From Actinomycetota bacterium (lineage in GTDB: Bacteria; Actinomycetota; Actinomycetes; S36-B12): DNA of 62,991 nt. A program made the position numbers and the translations under genes. Shown piece by piece: positions 18,671 through 30,040 of this stretch. Each line of letters starts with the position of its first letter. Positions within the stretch are counted from its first letter, which is position 1. The stretch spans positions 1-62,991 of the forward strand of contig CANFQC010000009.1 of NCBI GenBank assembly GCA_947449035.1. The letters run 5' to 3'. The notes beneath the pieces were generated by a model. It saw only the letters and a program-made list of their open reading frames with translations. It made no database searches and was not told the DNA's origin.

Positions 18671-18681
18671 GGTGATTCACC
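18671..18681. promoter_or_regulatory. Palindrome in the spoIID-LCP divergent region
   Basis: GGTGATTCACC is a perfect 11-base palindrome in the 218-base gap between the two divergent envelope genes. It may be an operator; no other copy was noticed. Confidence 0.3.
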
Positions 18682-18806
18682 CCACGAGTAATGTCCGAAA
18701 TGTCGGGAACCCTTCCTCGTGGAGACGCGTCCTATGCGGGAGTGCCGCTGGTCAGCATTCAGCCAGCAGCGACTTACCATGGATGAACCCCCACAAAGGA
18801 GCACCA

Positions 18807-20213
18807 ATGAGTACCCCTGCCCGCCGCCGCTGGCCCCGCCTGCTGGCTGCCGTGCTTGCCGTCGCCGTACTGGCGATGACGATCGTGGGCGTGGGCGTGA
18901 ACATGCTTCTGGGGCACCTGACCGGCAACATCACCGCGATCGACATCAGCGGCCAGACCGGCTCCTCTGCGGCACCCGCCCTGGTCGATGAGCAGACCGG
19001 TAACTACACCCCGCTCAATATCTTGATGATGGGCAGCGATACCCGACAAGGCAAGGGCAATAAGGGATACGGCAAGGCCGGCGTGATCAGCGGCGCGCGC
19101 TCCGACACCACGATCCTTTTGCACGTGAGCGCCGATCGACAAAGTGCGATCGCAGTCAGCATTCCGCGCGACACAATGATCACCTTGCCCGAGTGCAAGA
19201 AGTCTGATGGCAGCACGGTCGGTGGCTACAAGGCCCGCTTCAACTCAGCGATCGAGCTCGGCGGCCCTGGCTGCACGATCAAGGCTGTGCACGAGATGAC
19301 CGGCCTCGACATCAACAACTTCATGCTCGTCGACTTCGGTGGATTCAAGAAGATCGTTAATGCCCTCGACGGCGTTGAGATCTGCCTGACTGAAGACGTC
19401 AATGACGTCAAGAGCGGCCTGAAGATGAGCAAGGGCCTGCACGTCGTCAATGGCGAAGAAGCACTGGCGTTCGTACGCACCCGCCACGGACTCGGCGACG
19501 GCTCCGACACCTCGCGCATTCGTCGACAGCAGGCATTCTTGTCGTCACTTCTCCGCAAGACACTGTCGAGCGGCACCTTGCTGAATCCGGCCAAGATGCT
19601 CGGCGTCCTGAACGCCGCCACTGAGTCGCTGACCGCTGACCCGACCCTCGCGAACGTCGACAACCTCAAGGAAATCGCGCTCAGCCTCAAGGACCTCAAG
19701 CCGAGCAAGGTCACCTTCACCACGATGCCCTGGTACCCCAGCGGTGACGGCGCCACCGTCCTTTTGAACAAGAAGAAGGCTAAGCCGATCTGGGAAGCCA
19801 TCGCGAACGACACGACGTGGCCGCCGAAGCCCGCGGGTGATCAGCCGCTGCTCAAGGCCGAGCCTTCAGGCATTCGAGTGAACGTCTACAACGGCACTAC
19901 CACCAAGGGCCTGGCCAAGAAGGTCGCCAAGCAGCTCAAGGCCGAGGGCTACCTTGTCCGCGATACCGGTAACTGGGACACCAAGGACGTCACGACGACC
20001 ACGGTCAATTACGACCCTGACTACGACGTATCAGCCAAGACCCTGATCTACGCAACGACCGCAAACGGAGTTGCCAAGACGGGTCAGGGCCAGGCCATGG
20101 ATCTCGTCATCGGCAGTGACTTCACCGGCGTGAAGCCAGTGCAGATCGCGGCGGCGATGAAGGATCTCACCGCGAACGTGAACTCCGGTGATGAGGCTTA
20201 CTGCGCAAAGTAG
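18807..20213 (+). CDS. LytR-CpsA-Psr (LCP) family cell wall polymer ligase
   Basis: 468 residues from the ATG at 18807, preceded by AAAGGAG. One N-terminal membrane segment (about 9-33), then the LCP domain (MGSDTRQGKGNKGYG, RSDTTILLHV, ISIPRDTMI, AFVRTRHGLGDGSDTSRIRR) and a C-terminal LytR_C domain (from RVNVYNGTTTKGLAKKVA). LCP enzymes transfer lipid-linked glycans to peptidoglycan outside the membrane. Its neighbours (TIGR03089, nucleotidyltransferase, and the glycan genes downstream) fit anchoring of a secondary wall glycan. Confidence 0.93.
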   Translation: MSTPARRRWPRLLAAVLAVAVLAMTIVGVGVNMLLGHLTGNITAIDISGQTGSSAAPALVDEQTGNYTPLNILMMGSDTRQGKGNKGYGKAGVISGARSDTTILLHVSADRQSAIAVSIPRDTMITLPECKKSDGSTVGGYKARFNSAIELGGPGCTIKAVHEMTGLDINNFMLVDFGGFKKIVNALDGVEICLTEDVNDVKSGLKMSKGLHVVNGEEALAFVRTRHGLGDGSDTSRIRRQQAFLSSLLRKTLSSGTLLNPAKMLGVLNAATESLTADPTLANVDNLKEIALSLKDLKPSKVTFTTMPWYPSGDGATVLLNKKKAKPIWEAIANDTTWPPKPAGDQPLLKAEPSGIRVNVYNGTTTKGLAKKVAKQLKAEGYLVRDTGNWDTKDVTTTTVNYDPDYDVSAKTLIYATTANGVAKTGQGQAMDLVIGSDFTGVKPVQIAAAMKDLTANVNSGDEAYCAK

Positions 20214-20285: not shown

Positions 20286-21149
20286 CTAGATAACCGGCGG
20301 CCGTCCGGCCTTGGTCATCTCCCACACGGTGCGCCACTTCATCGCACGTCGTCCGCCCGGATTCTCGGTCATGCCTTCACGCAATCCGCCGAACCAAGCT
20401 TTCAACGCATCCTTGTCGCGCATGCGCAGCACCGTGATTCCCACCCACGTGCCAACGTAGATCGGTTCAAGAACCACAGGAAGATTGCGACGAGCCAGCC
20501 ACACTCGATTGCGTGCATTAAGTCGGTAGTAGACCTCATGACGTGCGGGATCGATCACGGGGTGATGCACGCTCACGTCGCCTGCGTACCAGGCCGTGTA
20601 GCCGGCATCCCACACGCGCCAGACGAGCTCGATGCCCTCGTGCGCATAGAAGAACGGATCGGGCCAGCCGCCAATCGCATCGAAGAGCTCGCGTCGCATT
20701 GCGACAGCGCCCTCCCACAGAGCAGTGGCAGGACCGGGGGTTGCATGGTTACCGGGACGCAAGCGTGGCACCCATCGACCGGGTGCCACGGCGCCGGTCG
20801 GATCAACCACGCGCGGCTGAATCAGGCCCAAGGTGGGGTCGGCAGCAAACCTGCGGGCCAGATCAGCAAGGAAGCCATCATTTGCCAGGCAGGCGTCGTC
20901 GTCGAGGAAGAAGATCAACTCACCGTCGACTTCGGGAACACCGGCATTACGGCCGGCAGGAATACCGAGGTTCTCCGGCAGCGCGAGTGTCTTGACCTGC
21001 GCAGGCAGGCCAGTGGGAATCCACCCGTTGCCCACCACGACAACATCAACCTCGACGTCACGCTGATTCAAAATCGAGGCCACCGCAGCCTGGAGTTCCT
21101 CCGGGCGCTTGCCCATCGTCAGGACAACAACGCCATACCTGGCGGTCAT
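20286..21149 (-). CDS. Family 2 glycosyltransferase
   Basis: 287 residues. GT-A fold of the GT2 family: VVVLTMGKRPEELQAAVAS, VVVGNG, ENLGIPAGRNAG and the metal-binding FFLDDDACL. EGAVAMRRELFDAIGGWPD and FYAHEGIELVWRVWDAGY resemble rhamnosyl- and galactofuranosyltransferase relatives. No membrane segment. Its ATG overlaps the stop of the CDP-alcohol transferase gene (ATGA), so the two are co-translated. Acceptor and donor are unknown; context suggests an envelope glycan. Confidence 0.88.
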   Translation of the reverse strand: MTARYGVVVLTMGKRPEELQAAVASILNQRDVEVDVVVVGNGWIPTGLPAQVKTLALPENLGIPAGRNAGVPEVDGELIFFLDDDACLANDGFLADLARRFAADPTLGLIQPRVVDPTGAVAPGRWVPRLRPGNHATPGPATALWEGAVAMRRELFDAIGGWPDPFFYAHEGIELVWRVWDAGYTAWYAGDVSVHHPVIDPARHEVYYRLNARNRVWLARRNLPVVLEPIYVGTWVGITVLRMRDKDALKAWFGGLREGMTENPGGRRAMKWRTVWEMTKAGRPPVI

Positions 21150-21946
21150 GCGCGCAGCTTGCTCGAGCTCAGGATGGACGCGAGGTGGCCAATGATCGTG
21201 ATGACGCCGAAGATCGCGAGGAAGGCGAGCAGGATTCTCGTCACGACGAGATCACCTGTGATCGCATCTCCGATAGATGCGAGGAAGATCAAAATGGTGA
21301 GCTCGACTGAATGGTACGAGCGATGGAAGGGAACGAAGCGGGCGAATGAGCGAAGGTTGCGCAGGCCTGCCGCCTTCGGAACTCCGACGTCGGCGCGATC
21401 AGCAAGCTTGGGCAAGTCGTTGTAGGCACGCGACACATGCACCATGTCGTTCAGAGCCTTGTTGTAAAGAATCATCACGGCGAGCAGAGCGCCGATCAAC
21501 GGCCACGGCGAATCGAGCCAGCCGGGATTCGGGAAGCCGGCGGCACGGAAGCCCAGTGCAATCGGGATGATGCCTTCAGTTGTGTAGTGACCCACGCGGT
21601 CGAGGAATACCCCGAGCGGCGAGGACTTCTTGCGCCAGCGCGCGACCTCGCCATCGCAGCAGTCCCAGAGCATCTGCATCTGGCCGAGCAGCATGGCAAG
21701 TAGGCCACCGATAACACCTGGGATCAGTACGACGAGCCCGGCACCCGCACCGGTGAGAATCATCAGCCAGGTGACCTGATTCGCGGTGATCGGCGTGCGA
21801 AGCAACAACTTGGTCAGGTACGGCGAGATGTCGCGCAAGTAGACATCTGCGACCCAATGCTCAGAGTTCTTGCGTCCACGAATGGCAGGCGGCTGGCACA
21901 CCTCGCGGATTTCGGCCACGGTGGGGCGTGACGGTCGATCAGTCAT
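21146..21946 (-). CDS. CDP-alcohol phosphotransferase with His in place of the fourth motif Asp
   Basis: 266 residues from the ATG at 21946 (another ATG at 21961 is possible). Several membrane segments. The CDP-OH-P signature is clear (D95-CC-D98-G-EV-A-R, then G112 and D116), but the fourth Asp of the family pattern, the proposed general base, is His120. These integral membrane enzymes transfer a phosphoalcohol from a CDP-alcohol to another alcohol. Next to a cytidylyltransferase-like gene and a glycosyltransferase, it could attach a phosphopolyol to a lipid or glycan. Activity with the His substitution is uncertain. Confidence 0.85.
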   Translation of the reverse strand: MTDRPSRPTVAEIREVCQPPAIRGRKNSEHWVADVYLRDISPYLTKLLLRTPITANQVTWLMILTGAGAGLVVLIPGVIGGLLAMLLGQMQMLWDCCDGEVARWRKKSSPLGVFLDRVGHYTTEGIIPIALGFRAAGFPNPGWLDSPWPLIGALLAVMILYNKALNDMVHVSRAYNDLPKLADRADVGVPKAAGLRNLRSFARFVPFHRSYHSVELTILIFLASIGDAITGDLVVTRILLAFLAIFGVITIIGHLASILSSSKLRA

Positions 21947-21975
21947 GCCGCAGCCTCGCATCCACTGGTGAACAT
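21943..21975 (-). other. Possible 10-codon leaderless upstream ORF
   Basis: TAGGCT at 21983-21988 (minus strand) is followed after seven bases by ATG at 21975, opening a frame that reads MFTSGCEAAA and stops with a TGA overlapping the ATG of the CDP-alcohol transferase (ATGA). If real, it would couple a leaderless peptide to the main gene. Confidence 0.35.
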
Positions 21976-21999
21976 CGGGCCAAGCCTACCTAGACCAGA

Positions 22000-22827
22000 T
22001 CAGAGATCCTCGTACTCGCCCTCTTCGTCTTCCTCGATTCGCGCCTTGTCCTTCTTGCGCTTGGAGCTCGGAACCATTTCCTTGCGTATGGCAAGACCTT
22101 CCTCGACTGAGGTCTCGGCGATGATCGAGCCACTTCCAAGCACGATCGCGCGATCGCAGAAACGCAGGAGATCGTCATCGTTGTCACTGGACACCAGGAA
22201 GGTAAGTCCGTCAGCACGCTTCTGATCCAGCTCGGCCCAGCAGTGCTCGCGATACTCACCGTCGCCGACGACGAGGAGCTGTTCGATCGCATAGGCACGC
22301 GTTTCGACGGCCATGCAGATCGCCCAGGCGAGCTTCTGGCGCACGATAGGACGTGCGTTGCTCAGGTACTTGTCCAGGCGACCATCCAGATCGGCTTCTT
22401 CGGCGATACGGTCCACCTTCGATTCGACTTCACTGGGCGTCATGCCCAGAAGTCCGCCGATGATGTAGATGTTCTGACGAAATGTGTACGAGCGATCGAG
22501 TGCCGGGACTACACCCACGAAAGGAACCACGTAATTCTTGCGACGTACGACTCCGGTATCAGGGATGAGGGTTCCGGCGGCCAGCCGGAGAAACTCCTCG
22601 CGGCCGTCATCCGGAAGGGCAATTAGCGCAACCGACTCACCGACTCGAACTGAAGTGGTGATGTCCCGAAGGATCCACTCGGTCTCGTTCTGGAACTCAC
22701 CAGCCATCCGGCGCAGAGCATGCTTGCGACCTCCACCGCCACGCCTTGTCTGACGCACCACTGAGCTGCCCACACCAGCGAAGTCGATCATCGAGTCGAG
22801 CTCAGGGGTCAGGTGAATACGGGCCAT
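22000..22827 (-). CDS. Degenerate ABC ATPase of a polysaccharide-type exporter
   Basis: 275 residues, with the overall layout of a Wzt/TagH-type nucleotide-binding subunit, starting one base after the permease gene. Every ATP site motif is gone: at the Walker A position (about 68-79) the sequence is ALIALPDDGREEF, with no GxxGxGKS; the signature is KYLSNARPIVRQ instead of LSGGQ; Walker B reads LLVVGDGEYRE; the H-loop His is Ser (FLVSSDNDD). The tail from about 253 is a charged Lys then Glu stretch. The frame is intact with normal codon use, so it is a maintained pseudo-ATPase, not a decaying gene. It may pair with a catalytic subunit encoded elsewhere or act structurally. Confidence 0.85.
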   Translation of the reverse strand: MARIHLTPELDSMIDFAGVGSSVVRQTRRGGGGRKHALRRMAGEFQNETEWILRDITTSVRVGESVALIALPDDGREEFLRLAAGTLIPDTGVVRRKNYVVPFVGVVPALDRSYTFRQNIYIIGGLLGMTPSEVESKVDRIAEEADLDGRLDKYLSNARPIVRQKLAWAICMAVETRAYAIEQLLVVGDGEYREHCWAELDQKRADGLTFLVSSDNDDDLLRFCDRAIVLGSGSIIAETSVEEGLAIRKEMVPSSKRKKDKARIEEDEEGEYEDL

Positions 22828-22828
22828 C

Positions 22829-23599
22829 TCACACCCCCTTCAGGATGCGTGGTTCGAGCTTCTTGAAGACGAGCAGGCCGATTCCGATGACGAGAATCAC
22901 AGCACCGAATGACACGCCGTAGTGCCACGGCGTCTCGATTTCCTCGGTCCAGAAACCGATGCGATACAAACCCAGGATTCCCACGAGGGGATTAATCGCT
23001 GCGATTGGCTGGACATGCTCCGGGATCTTGGTGATCGAGTACAGAACCGGTGATAAGTAGAACAGTGCGCGCATGCAGATGCGCACGATTCGATCGAGGT
23101 CAGGGATGATGGCGACTCCCGAGGCCACCAAAAGGCCAAGGCCGTACATGAGAAGAAACTGCAGGATCACGGCAACCGGATAGAAGATGATCAGCGGGCC
23201 GGGGATGGTGCGCGTGAAGATCATCGCAATGAGAATGATCGGCAGCGAGAAGAGGAACTCAATCATCGACACCAGCACGACTCGAAGCACCCATATCTCA
23301 GTGGGCAGCAGGCTAATGCGAAGCGCATTCGTATTTCGCTTGAACGAGCGTGTCGACTGCGCGATGCCCTTGGTGAACCACCACCACGGCAGGATCGCGA
23401 TAGTGATGAATAGCGCGTAGGGCTGCTGACCGATATGCCTGGAGAGCAGCACAGAGAAGACGAGCCAGAGAACGATCGACATGCCCAGGGGTTCGAGCAA
23501 GGTCCAGAGGTAACCCAGACGCAATTTGGTGTAGGTCTTCTGCAGGTCACGAAGGACCAGCATTCGGAGCACTTGGCGGTGCTCCCAGATGACATGCAC
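22829..23599 (-). CDS. ABC-2 type exporter permease (TagG/Wzm-like)
   Basis: 256 residues from a GTG. N-terminal amphipathic stretch (RDLQKTYTKLRLGYLWTLLE), then about six membrane segments; LGYLWTLLEPLGM and LFYLSPVLYSI are typical of teichoic acid and O-antigen exporters. Such permeases move lipid-linked glycans outwards and form homodimers with two ATPase subunits. Its adjacent ATPase gene lacks all ATP-binding motifs. TATCGT lies six bases before the start, predicting a leaderless mRNA. Confidence 0.9.
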   Translation of the reverse strand: MHVIWEHRQVLRMLVLRDLQKTYTKLRLGYLWTLLEPLGMSIVLWLVFSVLLSRHIGQQPYALFITIAILPWWWFTKGIAQSTRSFKRNTNALRISLLPTEIWVLRVVLVSMIEFLFSLPIILIAMIFTRTIPGPLIIFYPVAVILQFLLMYGLGLLVASGVAIIPDLDRIVRICMRALFYLSPVLYSITKIPEHVQPIAAINPLVGILGLYRIGFWTEEIETPWHYGVSFGAVILVIGIGLLVFKKLEPRILKGV

Positions 23600-23605
23600 C
23601 CCGCT

Positions 23606-23611
23606 ACGATA
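23606..23611 (-). promoter_or_regulatory. -10 element of the ABC exporter operon
   Basis: TATCGT on the minus strand ends six bases before the GTG at 23599; predicted leaderless transcript. Confidence 0.55.
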
Positions 23612-23710
23612 CCGACCATCTGAGGATCACCCGGACACCACGCTCGCCTTCAGGTACAGCACAGGTCACAGGGGTGTTCCGCGAGACACGCTTTGGCAAC
23701 GGGAGTGATC

Positions 23711-24403
23711 ATGAACGTGCAGGCCGTCATCCTGGCTGCGGGGATGGGAACACGCCTCGGCAAGCCCTGGCCCAAGCCGCTCACCCCTCTCGTCGACGGC
23801 CGCACCATCATGCGCCAGCAGATGGACAACCTCGAGAAGGCATTCGGTGCTGATCTTCGCGTCATGACTGTCATCGGCTTCAAGCTCGAGTTGATCATCG
23901 AGGCATTTCCTGACGTGGCCTATGTCTACAACGAGAACTACGACCAGACCAACACAAACCGCAGTCTCCTCAAGGCGCTGCGCATCGCCAGCGACGGAGG
24001 AGTGCTCTGGATGAATGGTGACGTCGTGTTCGACCCTGCTGTGCTCGAGCGAGCGAAGCCCCTCATGGACGCCGGCACATCGTTCATCTGCGTCAACACT
24101 TCAGCGACGGCAGAGGAAGAGGTCAAGTACACAGTCGATGCCGAGGGCAATGTTGCGCTGCTTTCCAAGACAGTCGAGAACGCCCTCGGTGAATCAGTCG
24201 GCATCAACTACATCAGCGCATCCGATCGCGCCGACCTCATCGCTGGCCTTGAGGCATGCGCCGACACGGACTACTTCGAGCGCGGTATCGAAATTGCCAT
24301 CGAGAAGGTGGGGATGAAGGTCGTTCCCCTCGACATCAGCGATCTCTTCGCTGTCGAGGTTGACTTCGAGGACGATCTCGAGCGCGCGAACACGCATCTC
24401 TAG
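23711..24403 (+). CDS. CTP-type nucleotidyltransferase (inositol- or choline-phosphate cytidylyltransferase-like)
   Basis: 230 residues; the ATG at 23711 follows GGGAG. Signature VILAAGMGTRLGKPWPKPLT and metal-site WMNGDVVFD. It lacks the beta-helix of mannose-1-phosphate guanylyltransferases; the short length and the YNENYDQTNTNRSLLKAL stretch resemble cytidylyltransferases of the LicC and inositol-1-phosphate type. Such enzymes make the CDP-alcohol used by CDP-alcohol phosphotransferases, one of which is encoded 1.8 kb away on the other strand. Substrate is inferred from context only. Confidence 0.82.
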   Translation: MNVQAVILAAGMGTRLGKPWPKPLTPLVDGRTIMRQQMDNLEKAFGADLRVMTVIGFKLELIIEAFPDVAYVYNENYDQTNTNRSLLKALRIASDGGVLWMNGDVVFDPAVLERAKPLMDAGTSFICVNTSATAEEEVKYTVDAEGNVALLSKTVENALGESVGINYISASDRADLIAGLEACADTDYFERGIEIAIEKVGMKVVPLDISDLFAVEVDFEDDLERANTHL

Positions 24404-29209: not shown

Positions 29210-30040
29210 GTGGACTCGGTTTTAGAACTATCTAACTCGCAATACCAGACAGTATTCAACGTGCTGTCATTCGCACTCGCATCAATGATCGGCACTGTCG
29301 TCTTCTTGCTCGCAGTACAGGGACGCGTTCTTCCGCGCTACCGCCTCGCTCTGGTCGTCTCGGCCATCGTGTGCGTGATCGCCGGCTACCACTACTTCCG
29401 TATCTTCAATTCCTTCACGGAGGCCTACGTAGCCAACGGCGCCGGATCGGCCGTTACTGCGGGTGCGGCAACCACCTTTGAACTGGTGAGCGGCCCCGGA
29501 TTCAATGAGGGCTACCGCTACGTCGACTGGCTGCTGACTGTTCCGCTGCTGCTCTTCGAAACCGTCGCAGTTCTCGCCCTGCCGCAGGCAACTCGCAAGT
29601 CACTGCTGCTGAAGCTCATCCCGGCATCCGCCCTGATGATCATTCTCGGCTACCCCGGCGAGCTCTCGTCTGACAACATGACCAAGGGCATCTGGGGAGC
29701 AATCTCCTCCATTCCGTTCCTCTACATCCTGTACGTGCTGTTCGTGGAGCTCTCGCGCGCTTCCAAGTCTCAGCCGGTCCAGGTGGGCAAGGATCTCAAT
29801 GGCCTGCGTTGGTTGCTTCTGGCCACCTGGGGCGTGTACCCGATCTCGTACATGTTCCCGATGTTCGGCTTGAACGGCGCTGACGCCTTCGTCTACCGCC
29901 AGGTGGGCTACTCAATCGCCGACGTTCTTGCCAAGTGCCTCTTCGCTCTGCTTATCTTCAAGATCGCCCGCGAGAAGAGCTTCAACGATGATGCGGCATT
30001 TGCCGACCAGGAGATCAAGGCTGCGCCTTCCTCCGTGTGA
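29210..30040 (+). CDS. Light-driven proton pump rhodopsin (xanthorhodopsin/actinorhodopsin type)
   Basis: 276 residues, seven membrane helices, from a GTG with GAGGAGG. Proton-pump residues are all present: Arg103, acceptor Asp106 and Thr110 in RYVDWLLT, donor Glu117 (a D-T-E motif), His61 in helix B, retinal Lys242 in helix G (DVLAKCLF). Position 114, equivalent to the 105 tuning site of proteorhodopsin, is Leu, which predicts green absorption. Gly163 (IWGAIS) takes the place of bacteriorhodopsin Trp138; this small residue opens the site for a carotenoid antenna in xanthorhodopsin. The gene sits alone, opposite to its neighbours, between DUF2017 and mec, which are adjacent or nearly so in relatives. 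No carotenoid or retinal gene is in the window. Confidence 0.96.
   Translation: MDSVLELSNSQYQTVFNVLSFALASMIGTVVFLLAVQGRVLPRYRLALVVSAIVCVIAGYHYFRIFNSFTEAYVANGAGSAVTAGAATTFELVSGPGFNEGYRYVDWLLTVPLLLFETVAVLALPQATRKSLLLKLIPASALMIILGYPGELSSDNMTKGIWGAISSIPFLYILYVLFVELSRASKSQPVQVGKDLNGLRWLLLATWGVYPISYMFPMFGLNGADAFVYRQVGYSIADVLAKCLFALLIFKIAREKSFNDDAAFADQEIKAAPSSV

Follow-up and report, generated by a model that had tools for sequence, protein, structure and literature searches.

A TagH/Wzt-type pseudo-ATPase maintained beside its ABC-2 permease in an aquatic actinobacterial family

Introduction

The defining property of ABC exporters is transport driven by ATP. One of the described systems closest to the gene pair reported here is the wall teichoic acid exporter TarGH/TagGH of Bacillus, Staphylococcus and Alicyclobacillus, which resembles the pair in NBD fold, gate loop and ABC-2 permease, and whose neighbourhood of polymerase (CDP-glycerol:poly(glycerophosphate) transferase family) and LytR-CpsA-Psr (LCP) genes is matched among the relatives of our locus. 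TarGH has a gate loop corresponding to ours, and TarH carries all of the ATP motifs (PMC7078476), which our protein has lost. The Wzm-Wzt exporters of O-antigen and mycobacterial galactan include the closest match by structure and by profile, A. aeolicus Wzt, and share the gate helix described between beta1 and beta2 (PMC6379404); Wzt, however, is an active ATPase, whereas our protein is without the catalytic motifs and without a carbohydrate-binding C-terminal domain. A degenerate ATP site kept by selection is likewise seen in the heterodimeric exporters TM287/288, CFTR and ABCG5/G8, but these keep one canonical site (PMC7756269), whereas our pair has a single NBD gene with its permease and has lost the motifs for both homodimer sites. 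A search of the open-access literature found no description of a pseudo-ATPase in a polysaccharide ABC exporter.

The window, by which we mean the whole stretch of DNA that was analysed (62,991 nucleotides), encodes such a protein one base from its permease.

Results

Identity of the gene pair

22000..22827, minus strand: pseudo-ATPase, a TagH/Wzt-type nucleotide-binding domain predicted to be catalytically dead, 275 aa (homology and motif loss)
22829..23599, minus strand: TagG/Wzm-type ABC-2 permease, 256 aa, separated by one base from the pseudo-ATPase downstream

The pseudo-ATPase reading frame starts with ATG and is uninterrupted, that of the permease starts with GTG, and a single base (22828), as an earlier note on this DNA had observed, lies between the permease stop and the pseudo-ATPase start. 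The permease was matched to ABC2_membrane (PF01061, 3e-10) and has an NBD gene adjacent to it, in keeping with a permease of the TagG/Wzm type. Classification of its partner was less direct. There was no match to Pfam PF00005 (ABC_tran) at E=1e-3 nor any at 0.01, and although NCBIfam models were hit with convincing E-values (galactan_ABC_ATP, 1.1e-17; TagH, 5.5e-11), the NCBIfam score of 64 bits fell far below the curated cut-off of 400. The alignment to Wzt/TagH models that the earlier note had proposed as a check made the relationship clear, then, but with scores short of the curated family cut-offs. A profile search against PDB chains matched A. aeolicus Wzt (5.8e-43) and TarH (4.2e-35). 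An AlphaFold2 model, which is of the monomer and was built from a shallow alignment of 18 sequences, had a pLDDT of 88.6, and Foldseek placed it closest to Wzt structures 8dne/6m96 (9.5e-23), with TarGH 9cfl and TagH structures also matched. By homology of sequence and predicted fold, the gate helix included, we assign the protein to the Wzt/TagH family; because it fails the defining catalytic tests, it is not classed, as judged from its residues, as a functional ABC ATPase.

Loss of the ATP motifs

Alignment to relatives and to active homologues located the remnants of the motifs:

22597..22623, minus strand: degenerate Walker A, residues 69-77 (IALPDDGRE), with Lys replaced by Arg76
22342..22365, minus strand: degenerate ABC signature, residues 155-162 (LSNARPIV for xxxxSSGM)
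22276..22296, minus strand: degenerate Walker B, residues 178-184, with the catalytic Asp-Glu replaced by Glu-Gln
22183..22203, minus strand: degenerate H-loop, residues 209-215 (TFLVSSD), with His replaced by Asp215

In the window protein the A-loop aromatic has become Val23, the Walker A stretch reads ALPDDGREEFL, with Glu77 in place of Ser/Thr after Arg76, the signature SSGM has become RPIV, and the Glu-Gln of Walker B stands at residues 182-183. Every replacement that the earlier note had listed for this otherwise intact gene (Walker A, signature, Walker B with its Glu, and H-loop) was found. Not one of 42 aligned pseudo-ATPases has the Walker A Lys, for which Arg is nearly fixed (38/42), nor the A-loop aromatic, nor the signature SSG(M), which was present in 21/21 active homologues. 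The catalytic Glu after Walker B was kept in seven of the 42 (it is Gln in the window protein), and the H-loop His in 3/35, these forming one small clade, so a reading in which this His is always lost was rejected. Of the dead motifs, whose conservation among relatives the earlier note had proposed to check, only the A-loop aromatic, the Walker A Lys and the signature are lost in all sequences of this alignment. The Walker B Asp is kept in 31/42, about half of the pseudo-ATPases have Thr after the Walker A Arg, and one subclade has GxxxxGRT plus Asp-Glu. Since the same losses are common to 42 aligned sequences, they are not a matter of chance.

Distribution, selection and origin

A search of 59 genomes returned some match to the pseudo-ATPase in 50; of the same-family genomes among them, about two thirds have a strong homologue (39-62% identical). 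In the loci that were read, these relatives adjoin the same permease and mostly have the same neighbours, and no internal stops were reported within strong matches (aligned copies). A scan of named species genomes, in records titled Candidatus Nanopelagicales or with other actinobacterial names, found 41 loci, all but one of the pseudo-ATPase type. The scan pattern was drawn from residues 163-172, making the high conservation there partly circular; the dead motifs hold also in the set from a whole-protein search. Nearly all of the named relatives are metagenome-assembled genomes, and taxon names are those given by the records. Public assemblies titled Bifidobacterium breve (L113, L115, L117, L119, L126, L131, L149) carry the Nanopelagicales-type gene, and these organism names look wrong. 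In G001 (same genus) and G021, at loci L102 and L103, the permease and the pseudo-ATPase are both absent, with the nucleotidyltransferase, CDP-alcohol transferase and glycosyltransferase kept side by side. The permease and pseudo-ATPase are co-inherited.

Pairwise Nei-Gojobori dN/dS for close pairs lay at 0.05-0.20 in the pseudo-ATPase gene and at 0.02-0.15 in that of the permease, dS being near saturation between the window and its nearest relative. By this dN/dS check, which the earlier note had called for, the pseudo-ATPase is under purifying selection, somewhat looser than that on the permease. Bit scores at the level of the class were above 300 for the pseudo-ATPases, then showed a gap, with the next homologues at about 200. 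The 21 nearest homologues outside the family were all intact in every motif, and two of them (L064, L065) occupy the syntenic slot in another family of the same order. These active orthologues share the synteny of permease, ATPase, CDP-alcohol transferase and glycosyltransferase, and L065 has the gene order of the window (nucleotidyltransferase, permease, ATPase, CDP-alcohol transferases, glycosyltransferase, LCP, SpoIID); they differ from the pseudo-ATPase in their intact GANGHGKST, SSGM, VDEVLAVGD and VSH motifs. In a tree the pseudo-ATPases grouped as one clade with support of 100/100, and the stem leading to it measured 2.46 changes per column. Given a single clade on so long a stem, catalytic capacity was most likely lost once, in an ancestor within the family that then diversified. 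Relatives with intact motifs together with relaxed selection had been named beforehand as the mark of simple decay; the former exist, outside the family, but selection is purifying and the dead state has become fixed across about 40 species. That this is a maintained, non-decaying pseudoenzyme is well supported, as is the original description of a glycan-type exporter with a maintained pseudo-ATPase.

Conservation was compared between 35 pseudo-ATPases and 21 active sequences. It fell from 0.89 to 0.64 in Walker A and from 0.89 to 0.60 in the signature (Walker A, signature and Walker B together, 0.86-0.89 to 0.60-0.66), whereas two other regions held or gained:

22696..22746, minus strand: residues 28-44 (RRGGGGRKHALRRMAGE), a basic insertion that lies between beta1 and beta2 and carries the gate helix (conservation 0.83 vs 0.50; helix 34-41 in the model)
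22435..22491, minus strand: residues 113-131, Q/X-loop region on the permease-docking side, conserved (0.82 vs 0.79)

The gate segment, at 0.50 in active and 0.83 in pseudo-ATPases, was the most strengthened region, and Arg28, Arg29, Gly31 and Arg40 are invariant there. In the permease we saw no sign of decay, and its conserved loops are common to active homologues. Constraint has thus shifted away from the ATP motifs and onto the basic gate helix at the substrate entrance, the putative permease-docking loop having stayed conserved.

Gene neighbourhood and likely cargo

Synteny and Pfam matches identified the conserved neighbours of the pair:

21146..21961, minus strand: CDP-alcohol phosphotransferase (PF01066, 2.1e-7)
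20286..21149, minus strand: family 2 glycosyltransferase (PF00535, 2.6e-12)
23693..24403, plus strand: MobA-like nucleotidyltransferase, divergent, possibly activating a CDP-alcohol or sugar-phosphate (PF12804, 3.6e-14)
18672..20213, plus strand: LCP protein (PF03816, 3.2e-46)

The LCP family attaches wall glycopolymers to peptidoglycan. In most relatives the pair lies between a gene of the CDP-glycerol:poly(glycerophosphate) transferase family (PF04464) and genes for a sulfotransferase-like protein (called by eye, with no Pfam match) and CDP-alcohol transferases, so that synthesis genes for a polyol-phosphate polymer stand alongside, as in TagGH-type systems. The window locus has no polymerase, sulfotransferase-like gene or second CDP-alcohol transferase. 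Contig C18 of the same genome, however, encodes a fusion of a GT2 and a glycerophosphotransferase (PF04464, 3e-106) that is not adjacent to the pair; the polymerase that adjoins the pair in G006 is 60% identical to it, and G018 and G026 likewise have close homologues of it next to the pair. Because PF04464 polymerases adjoin the pair and an LCP gene is nearby, the cargo, judged from gene context, is likely a teichoic-acid-like wall polymer.

Several other features of the region may be recorded here. The C18 locus (L187:5460-12531, G000) looks like a second polymer locus, with acyltransferase-like, sulfatase-like, GT2+glycerophosphotransferase fusion and sulfotransferase-like genes, counterparts of which adjoin the pseudo-ATPase in G006 and G018. 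Compared with L040 of the nearest relative (G002), the flanks of window 21962-23692 have 84-86% DNA identity, against no more than 73-77% for the permease and pseudo-ATPase. Three additional genes (polymerase, sulfotransferase-like and second CDP-alcohol transferase) lie between the flanks in G002, and the transporter cassette gives the impression of an exchangeable module whose flanks stay fixed. A microbial rhodopsin gene lies at 29210-30040 of the window (plus strand; PF01036, 3.7e-38).

Discussion

We read the pair as a descendant of a TagGH/Wzm-Wzt-type exporter in which the pseudo-ATPase was kept as a docking and gating subunit and translocation proceeds without hydrolysis there, a reading to which we give a probability of roughly 45%. 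The ATPase of an ancestral teichoic-acid-like exporter would have become a pseudoenzyme once within the family and been retained since. It would stay docked on the permease via the conserved Q/X-loop side and hold it permanently in a state that resembles the nucleotide-free one (channel or flip-competent), while the basic gate helix would present the phosphate-bearing lipid-linked substrate and gate its entry. The energy for translocation would presumably come from polymer synthesis or from trapping outside by LCP ligation, with no ATP hydrolysis by the pseudo-ATPase. We suggest, tentatively, that this is a translocator whose only NBD is a pseudoenzyme with both homodimer sites dead, and that it acts as an ATP-independent channel or scramblase controlled by the gate helix. 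Counted against this are that, to our knowledge, the known homologues need ATP; that the gain in mean net charge of the gate region is modest (+9.0 in pseudo-ATPases vs +7.6 in active homologues); that the near-fixed Arg and frequent Thr of Walker A possibly leave residual nucleotide or phosphate binding; and that another ABC-2 permease or a MOP-type flippase could provide a motor or a different route.

A shared active ABC ATPase might instead dock on the permease in trans, with the pseudo-ATPase serving as an adaptor or as the inactive half of a mixed dimer. Multitask ATPases serve some importers in this shared manner, and the window genome does encode a bona fide Wzt (contig C43) and a DrrA-like ATPase (contig C10); at least one other ABC-2 permease was found in each of the eight genomes tested. 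The C43 Wzt is the sole other Wzt of the window genome, however, and sits beside a Wzm of its own, so the proposed search for an orphan Wzt-like ATPase came up empty there. The C10 match belongs to a DrrAB-like pair instead, and a C35 match (L006, 26% identical) was rejected as an orphan Wzt since its neighbours and length, read by eye only, suggest a nitrate/sulfonate-type importer ATPase. Many relatives have an ORF of ~840 aa that includes an ATPase domain; it was dropped as a universal partner, no such match being listed in the window genome. Seven genomes that hold the pair and are 91-99% complete (G005, G010, G015, G024, G026, G029, G034) gave no second Wzt/TagH-type ATPase, genome-wide statements of this kind being based on searches, and in two of them (G010, G029) the ABC-2 permeases number two, the pair's own and a DrrAB-like one that has its own ATPase. 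Nor did the neighbourhoods read contain a second Wzt-like NBD gene, which separates the pair from the degenerate-site heterodimers, and because both Walker A and signature are lost, pairing with an active partner in a mixed dimer would still leave both sites incomplete. With no second Wzt/TagH in several near-complete genomes that bear the pair, there is no support for a dedicated glycan ATPase acting in trans, nor for the earlier note's implication of a second active ATPase elsewhere; a moonlighting DrrA-like ATPase is a possible motor, but a shared motor in trans seems unlikely overall.

The other role that the earlier note had raised, one outside transport, is possible in that it is compatible with the data, though the data do not require it. 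In its specific form the pair would be a scaffold or a receptor for lipid-linked substrate that keeps the polymerase, transferases and LCP protein in position, with a MOP-type flippase carrying the substrate. A MOP-family match was present in all eight genomes tested, the pair persists without an adjacent polymerase in the window and in genus g3, and the most strengthened region is the gate helix, a likely substrate-binding element. Yet the MOP matches are weak and could be MurJ, the permease retains features common to active Wzm/TagG, and a polymerase of the type that adjoins the pair in G006, G018 and G026 is present on another contig of the window genome. Polymerase types also vary from one neighbourhood to another, which suits a transporter of related polymers more than a fixed scaffold, and we regard a pure scaffold as improbable.

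Less probable still is a non-canonical use of nucleotide, in which Arg76 and its neighbours would bind ATP or another phosphate ligand for ligand-controlled gating or slow hydrolysis. The Arg at the Walker A Lys position, the Walker B Asp of most family members and the GxxxxGRT subclade with its Asp-Glu would suit such a site, but the A-loop aromatic, the signature and nearly always the H-loop His are gone, and the Walker A and signature stretches are now no better conserved than the less constrained parts of the protein. That the exporter is simply decaying and about to be lost, as the faster evolution of the pseudo-ATPase relative to the permease and the absence of the pair from some family members might suggest, is rejected at the family level and scarcely credible given the purifying selection on copies with no internal stop reported, one ancient origin, wide retention and strengthened constraint on the gate region.

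On the preferred reading, of a pseudo-ATPase that docks on and gates its permease, an aquatic actinobacterial family has long kept a motor subunit unfit for ATP use along with its channel, and no motor that obviously replaces it is seen. This suggests a translocator of ABC type that operates with no ATP consumed at its own motor subunit. If this is true, a polymer exporter became fixed for motif loss in its sole NBD and retained that state as the family diversified, and the gating role of an NBD would have been separated from its role as motor. What drives polymers through Wzm/TagG channels, whether ATP, synthesis or ligation outside, would then become directly testable, with nature offering for comparison an orthologue whose motifs are intact in the same operon.
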